In this document: positions 24,028-31,512 of the stretch, piece by piece
How positions within the stretch are numbered: the stretch's first letter is position 1
How the letters are laid out: each line of letters opens with the position of its first letter
Assembly (NCBI GenBank): GCA_020249775.1
Contig: JADCFA010000003.1
Span: 62,001-126,000 of the forward strand
Direction: 5' to 3'
Length of the DNA: 64,000 nucleotides
Origin: Roseomonas sp.
GTDB lineage: Bacteria; Pseudomonadota; Alphaproteobacteria; Acetobacterales; Acetobacteraceae
Made by a program: the position numbers and the translations under genes
Notes under the pieces: generated by a model
The model's input: the letters and a program-made list of their open reading frames with translations, nothing else
The model's database searches: none
What the model was told of the DNA's origin: nothing

Positions 24028-25676
24028 TTTTCGGCCCGACGCGGCTTGAAGAAGCGAAAGGCGCGATCCTGGCGCATACCATGCGCCTGACCGGCCGCGT
24101 CCTCAAAAAAGGCACGGTGCTGGATGATGGCGCCATCGCCGCCTTGCGAGACGGCGGGCATCGCGAAGTCATTGCCGCGCGGCTTGAAGTGGGTGATGTG
24201 CCGGAAGATGAAGCGGCTGAGCGGCTCGGCCAGGTTCTGGCCGCACCCTTGCTGGCGCGATCCCGCGCGGCCACGGGGCGCGTCAATATCCTTGCCGAAA
24301 CCGCCGGGCTTTTGGTGCTGGACACGAAGCGCATCGCGCGCATGAACGCGGTGGATGAAAGCCTGACCATTGCGACGCTGCCCAATTTCACGCCCGTCAA
24401 CACCAAGGAAATGGTCGCGACCATCAAGGTGATTCCCTTTGCCGTGCCGGGGCAAATGCTGGGCGTGGTGGAAGCGGTTGCGAAAAGCGGCACGGGGCCG
24501 GTGCTCGCCATTCATCCCTTCCGCGCGCTAAAGGTTGGGCTGGTGCTGTCCGAATTGCCCGGCATCAAGGAAAGCGTCATGGAAGGCGCGATTGAAGCAA
24601 CAGAAGAACGCATCGCCGGGCTTTGTGGCACGCTATTGCCGGTGGAACGCGTGCGCCATGACACGGTTGCGATTTCCGATGCGCTGTCGCGGCTACGCCG
24701 CGCGGGCGCTGAGATGTTGTTGGTGGCTGGCGCCTCCGCCGTGGTGGATCGGCGCGATGTCGGGCCTGCGGCCATTGTGCGCGCGGGTGGCGTGATTGAT
24801 CATTTCGGCATGCCGGTTGATCCGGGCAATCTGCTATGTTTGGGGCATATCGGCAAAATCCCCGCCATGGTGCTGCCTGGCTGTGCGCGCAGCCCCAAGC
24901 TGAATGGCTTTGATTGGGTGCTGCAAAGGCTTTTCGCGGGGCTTGAAGTCACCCCTGAAGATATCGGCGCCATGGGCGTTGGCGGCCTGCTCAAGGAAAT
25001 CGAAGTACGGCCCCTACCGCGCGAACAGGCACCGCGCACGCCACCACCCGCCCTCGCCCCGCGTCGCGGCCGGCGCGTGGCAGCGATTGTGCTGGCGGCT
25101 GGCCGGTCTCGGCGCATGGCGCCGCTGAACAAGCTGCTGGTCACGGATAATGATGGCGTGCCCATGGTGGTGCGCGTGGTGGAACAGGTGCTGGCTTCCC
25201 ATGCGCGGCCGATCATTGTCGTGACCGGGCATGAGCATGACCGGGTAGAGGAAGCACTTGCCGGTCGCGCCGTGCAATTCGCCCTGGCCGAGGATTACGC
25301 CCAGGGGCTTTCTGCCTCGCTCAAGGCCGGGCTGCGCGCTTTGCCGGAAGATATTGAAGGCTTCATGGTGTGTCTTGGCGATATGCCTTTGGTGAGTGCC
25401 GCCATGCTTGATCGGCTGATGGCCGCCTTTGACCCGGAAGAAGGCCGCGCGATTGTCATGCCGACCTTCCGCGGCAAGCAGGGCAATCCGATGCTCTGGT
25501 CACGCGAATTTCTGCCCGAGATGCTGGCGATTACCGGCGATGTCGGCGCGCGGCATTTGGCCGGCAAATATGCCGATCGCTGCGTTGAGGTTGAGATGGC
25601 CGATGACGCGGTGCTGCGCGATTTTGACACGACCGAGGCGCTAAAAGGCGTGCCGGGGTATAGTATGGTGAGGTGA
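24024..25676 (+). CDS. Molybdopterin-binding / NTP-transferase fusion protein (MobA/MocA-like)
   Basis: A 550-residue two-domain protein. Residues about 1-340 look like a molybdopterin-binding module of the MoaB/MogA/MoeA fold (GAILAHTMRLTGRVLKKGTV, MLLVAGASAVVDRRDVGPAA, VDPGNLLCLGHI). Residues from about 350 are a nucleotidyltransferase with AIVLAAGRSRRMAPLNKLL and MVCLGDMPLVSAAMLDRL, as in MocA/MobA, which add CMP or GMP to molybdopterin. The fusion would let one polypeptide bind the pterin and add the nucleotide. It is the last gene of the cox-type operon and is followed by the tandem hairpin repeat. The same fusion is known in other alphaproteobacteria. Confidence 0.9.
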   Translation: MIFGPTRLEEAKGAILAHTMRLTGRVLKKGTVLDDGAIAALRDGGHREVIAARLEVGDVPEDEAAERLGQVLAAPLLARSRAATGRVNILAETAGLLVLDTKRIARMNAVDESLTIATLPNFTPVNTKEMVATIKVIPFAVPGQMLGVVEAVAKSGTGPVLAIHPFRALKVGLVLSELPGIKESVMEGAIEATEERIAGLCGTLLPVERVRHDTVAISDALSRLRRAGAEMLLVAGASAVVDRRDVGPAAIVRAGGVIDHFGMPVDPGNLLCLGHIGKIPAMVLPGCARSPKLNGFDWVLQRLFAGLEVTPEDIGAMGVGGLLKEIEVRPLPREQAPRTPPPALAPRRGRRVAAIVLAAGRSRRMAPLNKLLVTDNDGVPMVVRVVEQVLASHARPIIVVTGHEHDRVEEALAGRAVQFALAEDYAQGLSASLKAGLRALPEDIEGFMVCLGDMPLVSAAMLDRLMAAFDPEEGRAIVMPTFRGKQGNPMLWSREFLPEMLAITGDVGARHLAGKYADRCVEVEMADDAVLRDFDTTEALKGVPGYSMVR

Positions 25677-25678
25677 AG

Positions 25679-25784
25679 CATTTTCAAGCCAAGTGGAAAC
25701 ACTTGGCGGCTCGGAAAATGCGATCAAACAAACCATTTTCAAGCCAAGTGGAAACACTTGGCGGCTCGGAAAATGCGATCAAAC
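25679..25784. repeat. Tandem 55-bp repeat, each copy a nested hairpin with GAAA loop
   Basis: Two head-to-tail copies (25679-25733 and 25734-25784 plus) with a 55-bp period and 51 identical bases. Each copy can form a hairpin: outer CATTTTC/GAAAATG, an internal loop, then GCCAAGTG-GAAA-CACTTGGC (25688-25707 in copy 1). Loop GAAA is a GNRA tetraloop. The copies sit between the convergent MobA-like gene and the DMT transporter gene. No T-tract follows on either strand, so it is not a standard terminator. It may be a REP-like element or an RNA-stabilising structure. Confidence 0.8.
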
Positions 25785-25840: not shown

Positions 25841-26770
25841 TCAGGCCTTGTTTTGCTCCCGTGCCGATAAGGCCGCCAGAAAGGCGCCAAGGCTGATTGC
25901 AGCCGCGCCCAGCATTTCGAATAGGCTCGGGACTTCCCCGAGGATGAAGAATGCCAGCAGAAAACTTGCGACCGGCAGCAGCGCAAGGCTCATTGCCGCC
26001 GCCGGCGCGCCCAGCAGCATGGCGGAACGCCCGAGTGAAAAAATCGTCAAGGCGCCCATCAGGACGCCCTGATAGAATCCCTGAAACACCAAATCCGATA
26101 CCGGGATTTGCGTGAGCTTCGAGGAATCCCACCACAGCCAGAGAAAAAGCGGCGTATAGATCAACATGGAATAGACGCTGAGCAACGCCGCCCCCTGCAA
26201 GGCGGAAAGCCCGGAACGCCGCATGCGGAGCAGATAGACGGACCCCATCATGCCAGCGCAGACAAACAGGATATCGCCCTTCCAGTAATCAGGATGGATG
26301 CTGGTCAGGCTGAATCCGCCAATGGCGAGCGCGCCGAGTGTGATCAAGCCAAGCCCGAGCTTGCGCAGGCGCGAAATCGGCTCATGCAGGAAAATGAGGC
26401 AAAGCAGGCTGGTGAAAAGCGGCATGAGGCCCGTAGAGAGCGCCAAATGTCCCGCAGGTGATAACGCCAACCCCTTTGTGGTCAGCATCGCAAGCGGCGC
26501 GCCTTGCAGCAGGGCGAACCAAAGACCCTCCAGCCAGGCATGGCGTGGCATGGCACTGGCGAGGCGCAGCAGCACCGGTAGTAGAATCAAGCCACCGATG
26601 CCGTAGCGCAGCAGAACAATATCCGGCGGCGTGACTGATTCGGTGACCGCGAGCCGCGTGAAAGCGGGCCAGGCTGACCAGACAATGAGCGTGAGCGAAG
26701 CCCATAGGCAGCCCACCAGAATGGTGTTGGTTTCGGATTTCGGCGCTGTAATTGATTTTTCGGCCGCCAC
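25841..26770 (-). CDS. DMT-family transporter (EamA)
   Basis: A 309-residue inner-membrane protein with two EamA repeats and about ten hydrophobic segments (LVGCLWASLTLIVWSAWPAF through LGAAAISLGAFLAAL). Conserved EamA features include LRYGIGGLILLPVLL and LGEVPSLFEMLGAAAI. Members export metabolites, amino acids or drugs; the substrate cannot be inferred. It is first gene on the left edge of the island and is downstream of the large regulator on the same strand (43 bp gap), so it may be co-transcribed with it. Confidence 0.9.
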   Translation of the reverse strand: MAAEKSITAPKSETNTILVGCLWASLTLIVWSAWPAFTRLAVTESVTPPDIVLLRYGIGGLILLPVLLRLASAMPRHAWLEGLWFALLQGAPLAMLTTKGLALSPAGHLALSTGLMPLFTSLLCLIFLHEPISRLRKLGLGLITLGALAIGGFSLTSIHPDYWKGDILFVCAGMMGSVYLLRMRRSGLSALQGAALLSVYSMLIYTPLFLWLWWDSSKLTQIPVSDLVFQGFYQGVLMGALTIFSLGRSAMLLGAPAAAMSLALLPVASFLLAFFILGEVPSLFEMLGAAAISLGAFLAALSAREQNKA

Positions 26771-26813: not shown

Positions 26814-28862
26814 TCAGCCCTTCGGCACCCCGGCCAATTCCAGGCCGCGCGCATAGTTTTCTCGATCTTCCTGCCGAGCCAGAGGATAGGTGCGGGAGAA
26901 ATGGGCGATGGTGAAATGCGGTTCGAGTTGCAGAAGCTTTTGAAGATAGGGGGCGGCTTCCTCGCGCCGACCAAGGTGACCCAGGGCGGCGAGGAGATGC
27001 TTATAGCCGTTGGAGAAATCGGGGCATGCCCGCACCGCCCGCTTGCCAAAACGAGACGCAGCTTCGTAATCGCACTTGAGTACGTAAGTGGTAGCGTAGA
27101 TGGTGTCACCGAAATAGGCGTTCGGATCAAAGCTTGATAAAGCCGAATAGCGTTGAAGATGCTGAAGCGCAGCGTCCGGCTCCCCAACATAATTGTAGGT
27201 TGCCGCACTCATGGCCCAAGCGAAGGTTATGTTTGGGTTGAGCCGTAGCGCGACGTCAAAATAATGTCGGGCAAGCTCATAGTCTCTTTCCAAAAAAGAA
27301 CAGACATGACCGCAAACCGCATAAGCTTCGGCATTTTCCGGATCAATCCGGATTGCGCGAAAGGCCAAATCAGACGCTTCTTCAAGGCTGGCTCGCGGAT
27401 CGCTAGCCCATCCCTGGCCAGTATGAAACACATGCCAGAATGCTTTCCAGGCCGCCGCTTTGGCATTCAGCGGATCAATGCGCAGCGCCTCGTCCAGGAA
27501 CTGACCAGCCTTTTCAAAGAGGTCACGCTGCATGACGAAAAATACCGGTAAAGCCTGCAGAACAAGGCTCGTCGAGCCCGATCTTCGCTGAAGCGCCTGT
27601 TGACCCTCAATAAAGAGTATCACAGGATCAATCCGCGCCACCACTGGCGCCACGACACGGTCATGAAATTGGTCCAGCCTATCGCTGGCCAATTCGAACC
27701 GATCACTCCAGACCGGCCGGATATCCGGGCCAATATCCAGCAGGCGTATACTGATGCTGATCTTATCAGCGCCGCTGATCAGGGTGCCTTCAACCGCATA
27801 ATGCCAGCCCTTGGCACGGATAAAAGCCTCATCCCAATGCGCCATATGCGGTTGTGGCGCCAGCGCGGCAATCACATCAAACCACCGAAACCGCGCAAGC
27901 GCCGAGGCGATTTCCTGGCTCAGGGAAAACGCCAATGGCGCATCCTCATCCGCGGTGGCCTGAAAGGGAATAACGCCAATCCGCAAGCGGGATGCGGCTG
28001 GCGCACCAATCGGCGTGCTGGGGCGCGGTTCAAGGCGGGCCGAAGAAGGCCGATCAGCTTCAAGCTTCTGGCGGGGCGGCGCCGAACGCAGGTTTTCATA
28101 AAGCGCCCTGGTTTCGGTTGAAGGTTCCACTTCCAACCTGCTCAGCATGGCCAGCCGACAGCGTTCAAATTCGCGGAGTGCCTGGGCCTTTTCGCCAAGA
28201 TCGGCCAGCGCCATCATCAGCATTCGGCTGGCGCCCTCATGGGTTGGATCGCAGGCAATGATGCGGCGCGCCAAGCCCGCACGCCGTTCCGCCGGGACCT
28301 CAGCCTGGGAGAGTTGCTGCAATTCCTCATCAAATACGCCGGTGATTTCAGTGGCGAAGCGGGCCCGTTCCATCAGCAGCCATTCGTCAAAGGCTTCCGA
28401 TATGCCATTGAGGTCTTCCAGCAATTCACCTTCGCAAAGCGCCGCCAGATCGGTCCTGAGCAGATTGGCCGGATGCGGGCCGGCCAGGATGGCGGCGGTA
28501 TCCACCCAGCATGAACGCTGGTTGAGCCGCAGCATCTCTGCGTCTGTTTCCAGGATTTCATCCGCCAGCGGCCCGAAGGCCAGCAATAATTCCCGCAGGG
28601 ATTGGCGCAGGCTGGCGCGCGCCTGATTTTCCGGCACCCGATCCCATAGCAGGGAAGCTATTTTAGCCCGTGGCACGCGCTGCCCGACATGCAGGCAAAG
28701 ATAGCCAAGAATGGCGCGCGCCTTGCGGCCCCGGGGTACCAAATCCTCCCCAAGGTAGCTGATGGCGCGCAGCGCACCCAGCAGGTGAATACGGACAGCC
28801 GCCTGCCGGGCGCCAATATCCAGCGCCACGAGGTTGTTTTGATTGGCATTTTGTCGCGCCAA
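26814..28862 (-). CDS. SARP-like regulator: winged helix, BTAD and TPR domains
   Basis: A 682-residue protein with the architecture of bacterial SARP/BTAD regulators. Residues about 20-100 form an OmpR-type winged helix (VRIHLLGALRAISYLG, RKARAILGYLCLHVGQRVPR, IASLLWDRVPENQARASLRQ). Residues about 108-250 are the BTAD helices. A TolB-N-like domain follows (about 290-420: LRIGVIPFQATADEDAPLAF, YAVEGTLISG), then TPR helices to the end (FLDEALRIDPLNAKAAAWKA, YFDVALRLNPNITFAWAMSA). No membrane segment or nucleotide-binding motif is seen. It is divergent from the repeat-protein gene across a 242-bp gap and is its most likely regulator, by position only. Confidence 0.85.
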   Translation of the reverse strand: MARQNANQNNLVALDIGARQAAVRIHLLGALRAISYLGEDLVPRGRKARAILGYLCLHVGQRVPRAKIASLLWDRVPENQARASLRQSLRELLLAFGPLADEILETDAEMLRLNQRSCWVDTAAILAGPHPANLLRTDLAALCEGELLEDLNGISEAFDEWLLMERARFATEITGVFDEELQQLSQAEVPAERRAGLARRIIACDPTHEGASRMLMMALADLGEKAQALREFERCRLAMLSRLEVEPSTETRALYENLRSAPPRQKLEADRPSSARLEPRPSTPIGAPAASRLRIGVIPFQATADEDAPLAFSLSQEIASALARFRWFDVIAALAPQPHMAHWDEAFIRAKGWHYAVEGTLISGADKISISIRLLDIGPDIRPVWSDRFELASDRLDQFHDRVVAPVVARIDPVILFIEGQQALQRRSGSTSLVLQALPVFFVMQRDLFEKAGQFLDEALRIDPLNAKAAAWKAFWHVFHTGQGWASDPRASLEEASDLAFRAIRIDPENAEAYAVCGHVCSFLERDYELARHYFDVALRLNPNITFAWAMSAATYNYVGEPDAALQHLQRYSALSSFDPNAYFGDTIYATTYVLKCDYEAASRFGKRAVRACPDFSNGYKHLLAALGHLGRREEAAPYLQKLLQLEPHFTIAHFSRTYPLARQEDRENYARGLELAGVPKG

Positions 28863-29104
28863 CGCCCTACCCCCTCTGCCAAACGCTTCCCATGAAGCGT
28901 CAATCGGGGAAGCCTATTACCTATGGTTGCATGATGCAAGCATCATTTCACGCCTTACAAGCGTTTTTTTAACGCCGCTATGCCGTCCACTTCACGCCAC
29001 CATCACGCGGAGGCGTGACCCTGACCCTGCTTTGAGAATTCTTACTTCGCGCTTTCAACCAAAGGTGGTTGCTAAGCGGCGGCCCAAATACGGGAGAGGA
29101 TAAA
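28863..29104. promoter_or_regulatory. Divergent intergenic region with palindromes, regulator/repeat protein
   Basis: The gap is richer in A and T than its flanks. It contains a palindrome ATGATGC-AA-GCATCAT at 28931-28946 and, about 15 bp on, GCGTT-TTTTT-AACGC. It must hold the promoters for both the SARP-like gene and the repeat-protein gene. The first palindrome is the best operator candidate. I cannot place -35/-10 boxes with confidence. Confidence 0.45.
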
Positions 29105-29599
29105 ATGAGCGATCTGAACACCCAACAGCTTCCTGCCATGACGCCGGTCACCCTTGGCGTCGCTACCATTGCCGATACCGGCAAGGTCCGCGTAGGTGGT
29201 CTATCTCCAAGCCTGCCGCCCGTGCGTGTTTCCGCCGAAGCGGTGGCCGATGCCGGCAAGGTCCGCTTTGGCGGCAATGCCCCAAGCCTGCCGCCAGTGC
29301 GCGTTTCCGCCGAAGCGGTGGCCGATACCGGCAAGGTCCGCTTTGGCGGCAATGCCCCAAGCCTGCCGCCAGTGCGTGTCTCCGCCGAAGCGGTGGCCGA
29401 TGCCGGCAAGGTCCGCGTCGGTGGTTGCGCCCCAAGCCTGCCGGCAGTGCGTGTCTCCGCCGAAGCGGTGGCCGATACCGGCAAGGTCCGCGTCGGTGGT
29501 TGCGCCCCAAGCCTGCCGCCAGTGCGCGTTTCCGCCGAAGCGGTGGCCGATGCCGGCAAGGTCCGTTTCGGCGGCAATGCCCCAAGCCTGCCGCGCTGA
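29105..29599 (+). CDS. Protein of six tandem 25-residue repeats
   Basis: A 164-residue protein made of a 14-residue start (MSDLNTQQLPAMTP) and six uninterrupted units of exactly 25 residues. The consensus unit is V-x-V-S-A-E-A-V-A-D-(T/A)-G-K-V-R-(F/V)-G-G-(N/C)-A-P-S-L-P-P; unit 1 is the most diverged. Units 4 and 5 carry a Cys after GG. There is no signal peptide or hydrophobic segment. GGGAGAGGATAAA gives a good ribosome binding site before ATG 29105, which I prefer to an in-frame start 36 nt upstream. I recognise no family. A repeat-core precursor peptide or a repetitive structural/adhesive protein are both possible. It is divergent from the SARP-like regulator and upstream of a DUF6065-like gene. 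Confidence 0.8.
   Translation: MSDLNTQQLPAMTPVTLGVATIADTGKVRVGGLSPSLPPVRVSAEAVADAGKVRFGGNAPSLPPVRVSAEAVADTGKVRFGGNAPSLPPVRVSAEAVADAGKVRVGGCAPSLPAVRVSAEAVADTGKVRVGGCAPSLPPVRVSAEAVADAGKVRFGGNAPSLPR
29147..29596 (+). repeat. Six tandem 75-bp coding repeats
   Basis: Units start at 29147, 29222, 29297, 29372, 29447 and 29522, each exactly 75 bp with no spacer. Units 2 and 3 differ by about two bases, so duplication is recent or the array is being homogenised. The period is a multiple of three and the array is fully coding. Several other frames also stay open through it because the unit has no stop in them. Confidence 0.95.
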
Positions 29600-29612
29600 A
29601 TTGTGGGCATAG

Positions 29613-29640
29613 TGAGGCTGGGGCGTCGCGCCCCGGCTTA
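29613..29640 (+). terminator. Hairpin between the repeat-protein gene and the DUF6065-like gene
   Basis: GGGGCG (29620-29625), loop TCG, CGCCCC (29629-29634), extended by weaker pairs to about 11 bp (AGGCT/GGCTT side). The tail TTATAGTCTT is only moderately T-rich. It could be a leaky terminator or attenuator letting the repeat protein be made in excess over the downstream protein. Confidence 0.45.
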
Positions 29641-29699
29641 TAGTCTTGGGGGGATGGGCATGTCTTCGCCCACCACTACCGCACCATTTGCCGGGGGCG

Positions 29700-30473
29700 A
29701 TGGTGACTGAGCCACGCAAGGCCATGGCGCCGCTTGCCACCTTCTACCGAATGATCCCCTCGGCGCGCGCACCCCAGCGCGCCGACCGTTCGGCGGCGGG
29801 CACCATGCCCACCAGGGCCTTCCGTTTTTGTGAGGCAATGACCACTGCCTCCGCCTTCGGCTGGTACGTCTTCCCGCCTATTGGCTTCAAGCTGATGTGG
29901 GATGGCTCGGATGTGATATGGACCTATGATGGTGTGGCGGATTGGTATCCCCTCACCAGCGCGCAATTTCCGCATTTCGCCGCGCAGTTCGATGAGGCAG
30001 CGCCGGATGACATCAAGGGCTATTCGCCGCCCTTCCTAAGCACCTTTATCGAGCCTGGCCTGGTGCAGATCTGGAGCGGCCTTGCCATGCGCACCGCGCC
30101 GGGCTGGGCAGCGCTGATCAGGGCGCCAGCCAATTTCGTGCGCAATCGCGGCTATGAATGCTACGAAGGCATCATCGAAACCAGCCGCTGGTTCGGCCCG
30201 CTTTTCATCAATGTGCGTCTGACCCGCACGCATCATCCGATCGAATTCGATCCGAATTTTCCCTTTTTGCAGGTGCAACCCCTCCCGCAGGACGCTTATG
30301 GCCCCGCGGCGGATAAATTTGCCATCATTGATGATCTGGCGGGCTTTGGTGCCGCCGAATGGAATGATTTTCGGAGCACGATTGTCAGGCCAAACAAGGA
30401 CCCGCACCGCAAGCTTGGTGAATATGCCGTCGGAATCCGCAAGTCGCAGCGCGCGAAAGGGGATGATTCCTGA
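29700..30473 (+). CDS. DUF6065-like protein
   Basis: A 257-residue soluble protein. The pattern FYRMIPSARAPQRADRS, then RAFRFCEAMTTASAFGWYVF followed by PP and a WDGSDVIWTYDG stretch, resembles DUF6065, in which a Cys/Asn-rich segment precedes GW and a W-D/N-G motif; this is from memory and needs a profile search. Later features are a hydrophobic APGWAALIRAPANF and a basic C-terminus. No catalytic motif is evident. ATG 29700 is preceded by CCGGGGGCG; an in-frame TTG lies 54 nt upstream, and a Met at codon 9 (29724) is another choice. It lies 100 bp after the repeat-protein gene on the same strand, before a good terminator. Confidence 0.7.
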   Translation: MVTEPRKAMAPLATFYRMIPSARAPQRADRSAAGTMPTRAFRFCEAMTTASAFGWYVFPPIGFKLMWDGSDVIWTYDGVADWYPLTSAQFPHFAAQFDEAAPDDIKGYSPPFLSTFIEPGLVQIWSGLAMRTAPGWAALIRAPANFVRNRGYECYEGIIETSRWFGPLFINVRLTRTHHPIEFDPNFPFLQVQPLPQDAYGPAADKFAIIDDLAGFGAAEWNDFRSTIVRPNKDPHRKLGEYAVGIRKSQRAKGDDS

Positions 30474-30768
30474 CAAGATTGAGGTTTCTGATGGCCCCGG
30501 CTTGCAGCCCGATCCCCCTACAAGGGGGTTTGAAATCATGCGAAAAAGCTACCAAGCGATTCCCGTTCACCCTGGTTTACGGGACATGCTCTGAACCTTT
30601 GTTCGGTGGCGTGCTCCAGGCTGCCGAAGGATGCCGATTTACCTGAAGATGCTAAAAGCGCTTTCAGAATATATTTGCACGCTTACTGGAGAACTTGGGG
30701 CAATGGACATTGCTTTTTGCTTACGAATTGTTACCTGGAGAATGTGTTGACGCCGGAGAAGCCATGCC
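30474..30768. other. Non-coding gap after the DUF6065-like gene
   Basis: About 295 bp of lower GC than the flanks. Apart from the terminator-like hairpin at its start I see only an 18-codon ORF beginning at 30538 with no clear ribosome binding site, and an AT-rich stretch around 30660-30740 that may hold the promoter of the next small ORF. No RNA gene is recognisable. Confidence 0.4.
30514..30535 (+). terminator. Intrinsic terminator-like hairpin
   Basis: CCCCCT (30514-30519), loop ACA, AGGGGG (30523-30528) followed by TTTGAAAT. It lies 40 bp after the stop of the DUF6065-like gene, in the right place to end the repeat-protein/DUF6065-like transcript. The T-tract is short. Confidence 0.6.
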
Positions 30769-31065: not shown

Positions 31066-31512
31066 CTATGCATCGCTTTCATCACGAGCCAAACTCCGGA
31101 CCAGGGTAGAGATGGATCGTCTTATCTCAGGGTCAGCGATCTGAGAAAAAGCGCGCCCAACATGATACGCTTCTCTCGCTGCCACCGGGATTTCCAATTC
31201 GGATGGGGAATCTCCAGCCTGTTGGCGCAGGAAGGCTTGATGGTCCAATAGAAAAGTTATTGGAATGCCAAGGGTCGTTGCCACCAACAACAAACGCCCG
31301 GCACCAATGCGGTTTTCTCCACGTTCATATTTTTGTAGCTGCTGAAAGGTGATGGAAAGCCTCTCAGCAAGTTTTTGCTGGCTCATGCCGACCATTGATC
31401 GATAAAGCCGGATCCGCTCGCCGACAAATTTGTCGGCCTCATTGGTTTCCCTGGTTGCGGGCCTTTTCATCACGTCCAAGCGCATTTGATCGGTCGAGCT
31501 GGTTTCTGGCAT
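31066..31512 (-). CDS. XRE-family helix-turn-helix transcriptional regulator
   Basis: A 148-residue DNA-binding protein. An unconserved N-terminal tail of about 28 residues precedes a HTH_3 domain: VGERIRLYRSMVGMSQQKLA, then ERLSITFQQLQKYERGENRI and LLLVATTLGIPITFLLD. The C-terminal part (IADPEIRRSISTLVRSLARD) resembles the tail of PraR/SinR-type alphaproteobacterial regulators, which repress quorum sensing or biofilm genes. AGAGAGAGG precedes the ATG. No target gene is evident; it may autoregulate through the palindromes in the gap upstream. Confidence 0.88.
   Translation of the reverse strand: MPETSSTDQMRLDVMKRPATRETNEADKFVGERIRLYRSMVGMSQQKLAERLSITFQQLQKYERGENRIGAGRLLLVATTLGIPITFLLDHQAFLRQQAGDSPSELEIPVAAREAYHVGRAFSQIADPEIRRSISTLVRSLARDESDA

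Follow-up and report, generated by a model that had tools for sequence, protein, structure and literature searches.

What is a gene for a peptide made almost entirely of tandem units doing next to a gene for DUF6065, a domain without an assigned function? The question is raised by a locus in a 64,000-nucleotide stretch of a Roseomonas sp. genome (contig JADCFA010000003.1, positions 62,001 to 126,000; hereafter the window), the source genome comprising 4.07 Mb in 56 contigs. Here a repeat peptide gene (29105..29599, + strand) encodes 164 residues with six units of the type ADxGKVRxGGxxPSL, within which lies a tandem array (29171-29594; period 75 nt, 5.7 copies, 90% matches). A gene for a 257-residue protein starts 100 nt after it on the same strand (29700..30473, +), and a Pfam search of this protein recovered DUF6065 (PF19541) with an E value of 3.1e-14 and 53.5 bits against a cut-off of 26.6. 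An earlier sequence-only reading of this DNA had described both genes correctly, the repeat protein facing a regulator gene, and had proposed that they belong to a possible system. Our surveys showed that the peptide and the DUF6065 protein are an evolutionarily coupled pair in which the type of one matches the type of the other.

A unit-bearing peptide gene accompanies DUF6065R

We use DUF6065R for the branch of DUF6065 to which the window protein belongs. A unit-bearing peptide open reading frame (ORF) was found just upstream, on the same strand, at 95 of the 97 chromosomal DUF6065R places examined, these being 41 of a first set (the window included), 47 in L166-L212 and 9 in L235-L243. In the first set, where 40 places besides the window were fetched with their flanks and a weak match in G058 was left out, the ORF was present in 40 of 41 places and ended 74-193 nt before the match start; the exception, L073, carries a repeat ORF of another type. 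The 150-genome sample of the window's family gave 67 new strong places, 37 of which were examined (28 with loci and 9 chosen for their flanks). The regular expression for the unit detects 83 of 88 places, with L073, L189 and L190, and likewise L242, added after their translations had been read; L165, a second copy of L068, was removed. The two places without an adjacent peptide, L168 (G743) and L174 (G816), lie in genomes that each have a GAFAPTL-type peptide on another contig (L254 and L258) with no DUF6065R beside it, and the same peptide type adjoins L175, their neighbour in the DUF6065R tree.

At least two strict units were present upstream of 69 of 88 DUF6065R genes; none of the 29 canonical DUF6065 genes and none of 2242 randomly chosen flank positions had them. 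With at least one strict unit the counts were 80/88, 1/29 and 30/2242, and with at least one loose match 83/88, 11/29 and 279/2242, so that loose single matches prove little alone; loci with loose single matches only were read by eye. Among seven close contigs labelled viral, five carry a unit peptide and two break off at the gene. Across the 150 family genomes, DUF6065R occurred in 28 of the 30 with a peptide match at E ≤ 1e-5 and in 22 of the 120 others (Fisher p 1.4e-14), in a cross-table whose E limit was chosen after inspection of the matches and which omits 11 genomes with peptide matches between 1e-5 and 1e-3 (6 with DUF6065R, 5 without). In the two genomes with a peptide and no DUF6065R (G767 and G779) the array reaches the contig end. 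Five peptides stand alone (L254, L258, L269 and L270, both in G808, and L265 in G702, which lies beside a regulator homologue), and in four of these cases a DUF6065R is present at another place in the genome, together with a peptide of matching or paired type. Co-occurrence had been named beforehand as the test on which the idea of a system might fall; with 95/97 places linked, 28/30 peptide genomes holding DUF6065R and controls of 0/29 and 0/2242, the possible system emerges as a recurrent pair rather than an accident.

Unit type and the DUF6065R tree

The units fall into types, among them A (that of the window, GGxAPSLP), B (GGLSPLF), C (GAGMRTPKA), D (GNMSPAF), E (GMMAPAF) and others. On a tree of 89 DUF6065R proteins the unit-type label changes 19 times, against 53.8 changes when labels are shuffled, and types D and E each form one supported clade. 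Labelling was coarse: GGLSP occurs among the units of the window and of two relatives, which were labelled B for that reason, and type B requires 6 changes. Clustering of types is weak evidence alone, because descent clusters any linked pair. The stronger part of the case, in our judgement, comes from genomes with two pairs and from the unlinked exceptions: in ten genus genomes with both B and C loci each DUF6065R belongs to the clade that matches its own peptide type, and the genomes of L168 and L174 retain the peptide type expected from the DUF6065R tree. As judged from this tree, unit type follows DUF6065R rather than the genome.

Conservation of the peptide unit

The unit spans ~14 residues with the core (D)-x-G-K/T-V-R-L-G-G/A-x-x-P-x-L/F, its commonest residues, weighted over 83 loci, being V/T-A-D-A/K-G-K/T-V-R-L/I-G-G/A-M/G/L-S/A-P-S/A/T-L/F. 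Relatives of the peptide were found in metagenome-assembled genomes labelled Roseomonas, Asaia and Rhodospirillales, which makes Acetobacteraceae the probable family of the window. Differences between units of one array are mostly synonymous, the proportion of synonymous differences (pS) being 0.299 and that of non-synonymous differences (pN) 0.087 for 62 pooled arrays (pN/pS 0.29), with pN < pS in 56 of the 62. Because motif-based picking of units favours conservation, the calculation was also run with the anchor codons removed, which gave a pN/pS of 0.39 and pN < pS in 53 of 62 arrays. At the extreme, the 17 units of L185 have a pN of 0 at a pS of 0.231. Peptides carry from 1 to about 18 units, and those of L238, L127 and L128 consist of a single unit in 30-35 residues, which suggests that the unit, and not the array, is what evolution keeps. 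In L035 (G022) the array switches frame internally, so this copy may be broken or misassembled.

Peptides of one unit also speak against a structural repeat protein. The sequence-only reading had offered a repetitive surface or effector protein as an alternative, which fits poorly with peptides of 30-35 residues and with the absence of an apparent signal peptide, judged by eye without a predictor. A role in nucleic-acid binding or as a solenoid is likewise unlikely, because charge and linkers differ between unit types.

DUF6065R as a branch of DUF6065

Strong matches to the window protein were found in 29 of 34 same-genus genomes as well as in the genome it comes from. A profile search (E < 1e-40) found DUF6065R in 50 of 150 genomes sampled from the window's family, in 9/25 genomes of family f41 and in 9/75 of f66. 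In a sample of the class 5 of 385 genomes were strong for DUF6065R, all in f1, f41 or f66, and in a sample of the phylum 1 of 398, the window's own genome. Two Rhizobium plasmids (NZ_CP104041.1 and NZ_CP104036.1) encode a protein of 45.7% identity that carries the annotation 'DUF6065 family protein' and scores 46.4 bits against Pfam DUF6065. The peptide/DUF6065R pair is present in both records (2/2); the Rhizobium peptide, annotated 'hypothetical protein', has three units of type DDGKVHIANKSPAFDIADF and ends 16 nt before the DUF6065 gene.

DUF6065R and canonical DUF6065 are homologous (hhalign probability 98.9, E 2.6e-17) and yet separated by score (at least 399 bits versus at most 43.5). Canonical DUF6065 (PF19541) is ~20% identical to the window protein, is without a 22-column stretch that the latter has at about residues 98-119, and differs from DUF6065R in having at least two strict units upstream of none of its 29 genes. 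No common neighbour was seen across the 14 canonical loci read. Residues C44, N145, E160, W164, G166, P167 and N171 are among those invariant in a 24-row DUF6065R alignment. A dUTPase/dCTP deaminase fold, spotted by eye, was rejected, its best hhalign score of 18.9 lying inside the range of 16 unrelated profiles (10.9-19.7). Fusions of the canonical domain also occur, in L115 and L118 to what we take to be a cupin/JmjC-like domain and in L117, presumably, to a SapC-like one. A search of the phage collection gave no match. DUF6065 relatives of ~22-29% identity do occur on IMG/VR viral contigs (L131-L151), and one of the IMG/VR relatives matches phrog_7084, a family without an assigned function.

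Regulator and intergenic sites

Divergent from the repeat peptide gene lies a SARP-like BTAD/TPR regulator gene (26814..28862, - strand; 682 residues). The sequence-only reading had called it a winged-helix/BTAD/TPR protein, of which the BTAD domain (Pfam E 6.6e-13) and several TPR matches stand, whereas the winged helix is seen only below threshold (Trans_reg_C, 14.2 bits against a Pfam cut-off of 26.2). Of 72 informative loci, 57 have a homologue of the regulator no more than 4.5 kb away (30/32 of the genus, 27/40 of others), a count that leaves out 13 loci with too little flank and excludes ORF L242_11, presumably histidine-kinase-like. Its placement varies, being divergent, convergent, or on the same strand upstream or downstream. 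Among these neighbouring homologues Pfam BTAD matches 40/52 and Pfam winged helix 9/52 (E ≤ 0.001), while an N-terminal profile built from type-A regulators matches 54 of 55 clustered ORFs. By Pfam, 14 genomes hold 0 to 9 BTAD genes each, an undercount of regulators, G745 having a homologue near DUF6065R yet no BTAD match in the genome. The sole BTAD gene of G749 adjoins DUF6065R; G075 and G202 (f41) have one each, far from it.

Seven type-A intergenic regions share TTTCACG followed downstream by TTCACRG-4 nt-TTCACGC with a period of 11. In the window the first element lies in TTTCACGCC (28946..28954, strand unassigned; TTTCACG conserved in 7/7 aligned type-A loci), and the second is the direct repeat TTCACGC-4 nt-ATCACGC (28991..29008, strand unassigned; period 11), a candidate regulator site whose second copy, ATCACGC, is one base off the TTCACGC of its relatives. 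Over 69 loci of all types, period-11 repeats were not enriched. PMC10972967 describes 11-nt spacing as classical for SARP sites; compared with the Streptomyces regulators treated there, the present one shares the BTAD domain, with candidate heptamer repeats of 11-nt period in type A, and differs in being alphaproteobacterial, in its TPR-rich C-terminus and in a winged helix weakly matched by Pfam. A match to the NCBIfam peptide modification system cyclase family TIGR04510 was rejected (15.2 bits against a cut-off of 400, confined to the TPR part). The start of the window peptide is supported by the Shine-Dalgarno-like GGGAGAGG (29092..29099, +) ahead of its ATG, and AGGAGA or GGAGAGG plus the ATG is conserved across seven aligned type-A loci.

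Exporters and other neighbours

An EamA/DMT exporter gene on the regulator strand (25841..26770, -; Pfam EamA E 3.6e-23), identified as such in the sequence-only reading, would be an occasional member of the system. EamA is present in 6/6 type-A loci with enough flank, and in G691, of the window's family, an EamA gene 38% identical to that of the window overlaps DUF6065R by ATGA. In Rhizobium DUF6065 overlaps a major facilitator superfamily (MFS) gene by ATGA, and in G750 an MFS gene lies 50 nt downstream of DUF6065R. The MFS frame of Rhizobium sp. WSM4643 (L287 9840-10858) is annotated as two hypothetical proteins, its SRDI969 counterpart being one frame. Neighbours that we take to be EamA-like in G924 and G006 are not close to the window's EamA. 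As partners of the pair, regulator and exporter are thus recurrent and not universal, the regulator being near in 57/72 loci and exporters in a minority; exporters support the pathway set out below and cannot decide for it, because such transporters are common.

A presumed threonine-dehydratase-like gene (cluster c21) adjoins the pair in two distant families (L232, L235, L104, L105 and L107). A gene that we take to be tldD-like lies upstream of the peptide in L216, L217, L220, L221, L224-L226 and L228; it may reflect plain synteny, because a presumably ctaA-like gene accompanies several of these 8 loci, and is not used as evidence here. TldD/E matures some RiPPs (ribosomally synthesized and post-translationally modified peptides), according to PMC10885120. 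A helix-turn-helix gene of the window (31066-31512) was rejected as a member, being present in type-A genus loci only. The terminator that had been read after the DUF6065-like gene did not survive a scan of 28700-30700, which returned none on the + strand and two matches on the - strand, equal to chance (shuffled mean 1.9). In the gap that separates the EamA gene from the one that ends at 25676, a 55-bp sequence is present in two head-to-tail copies (25679-25784; 1.9 copies, 100% matches).

A proposed RiPP-like pathway and its alternatives

We put the probability of a RiPP-like peptide pathway, with DUF6065R acting on each unit, at about one in two. One hallmark of a RiPP, a ribosomal precursor linked to a partner gene, is present at 95/97 places. 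In such a pathway DUF6065R would recognise each unit and modify it or ready it for cleavage, general proteases would free unit-derived products and a DMT or MFS exporter would, in certain lineages, carry them out. The BTAD/TPR regulator would turn the genes on, in type A via the heptamer repeats between the divergent genes, and more unit copies would give a higher yield per transcript. We infer that the system works like a multi-core RiPP system.

Several findings weigh against this proposed pathway. The N-termini of the peptides are similar only within a type and leaders do not appear to be conserved, and the f66 peptides begin almost at the first unit, with almost no leader; so weak a leader runs against textbook RiPP logic, yet would suit an enzyme that recognises the unit directly. 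Units hardly vary within an array, in contrast to RiPP cores of the hypervariable kind. Most loci have no exporter gene next to the pair, and a scan of five window genes turned up no known RiPP enzyme. Searches for relatives in the PDB returned none for P0002 (E ≤ 1) or A1 (E ≤ 5), and six matches for A5 at E ≤ 10, the best at E 0.24.

Of the closest known systems, graspetides with multi-core precursors (PMC8939145) likewise combine a ribosomally made precursor of several core repeats with a dedicated neighbouring gene, but rely on an ATP-grasp enzyme and a leader, whereas here the gene is DUF6065R, with no ATP-grasp among the scanned window genes and no evident conserved leader. Pearlins (PMC10885120) are small molecules derived from a ribosomal peptide, a likeness that holds only if the RiPP-like pathway is right; there the amino-acid product is built at the end of the scaffold peptide, and here the units are internal repeats.

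Peptide signalling is an unlikely alternative. The unit would be a ligand from a multi-copy precursor, detected through the regulator's TPR part, with DUF6065R processing or carrying it; in yeast, alpha-factor is released from such a multi-copy precursor. The proximity of the regulator in 57/72 informative loci, its TPR regions, the type matching inside genomes with two pairs and the occasional exporter all accord with signalling. Against it, 15 of the 72 informative loci, family f41 included, are without a nearby regulator, and TPR domains bind many ligands.

Still less probable is a multivalent scaffold, in which the unmodified peptide would be a string of binding sites gathering copies of DUF6065R without any processing. 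This would explain a constant unit with variable linkers and copy number, as well as DUF6065R types matched to unit types, but it is hard to square with one-unit peptides, and the ATGA-coupled exporter genes suggest a diffusible product. A toxin-antitoxin or anti-phage conflict pair, for which a small ORF next to a partner gene and a patchy distribution might speak, is very improbable given the lack of a PADLOC match for three proteins at E ≤ 0.1 and the widely varying unit copy number.

A bolder form of the RiPP-like pathway is possible, and we offer it tentatively. DUF6065R may be the first member of a novel class of peptide-acting enzymes that read the unit and not a leader and turn each (D)xGKVRLGG(M)xPxL unit into a small exported metabolite or signal. 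Tandem precursors would then allow its bulk production, and a TPR-SARP regulator devoted to the pathway would sense it.

Among open-licence papers, none was found that names DUF6065 or PF19541 and none with the unit strings, and broader searches of the open-licence literature found no description of the peptide/DUF6065R system. The pair resembles a bacterial pathway, as yet undescribed, that would act on a ribosomally made peptide. It provides a functional handle on DUF6065, a domain without an assigned function for which that literature yielded no paper, and unites into one family small peptides that are 'hypothetical' wherever annotation was seen, with a partner gene in a third of the sampled genomes of the window's family (50/150). 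If DUF6065R and the peptide are indeed maturase and substrate, RiPP biology would gain a protein family open to testing with two genes in a laboratory host.

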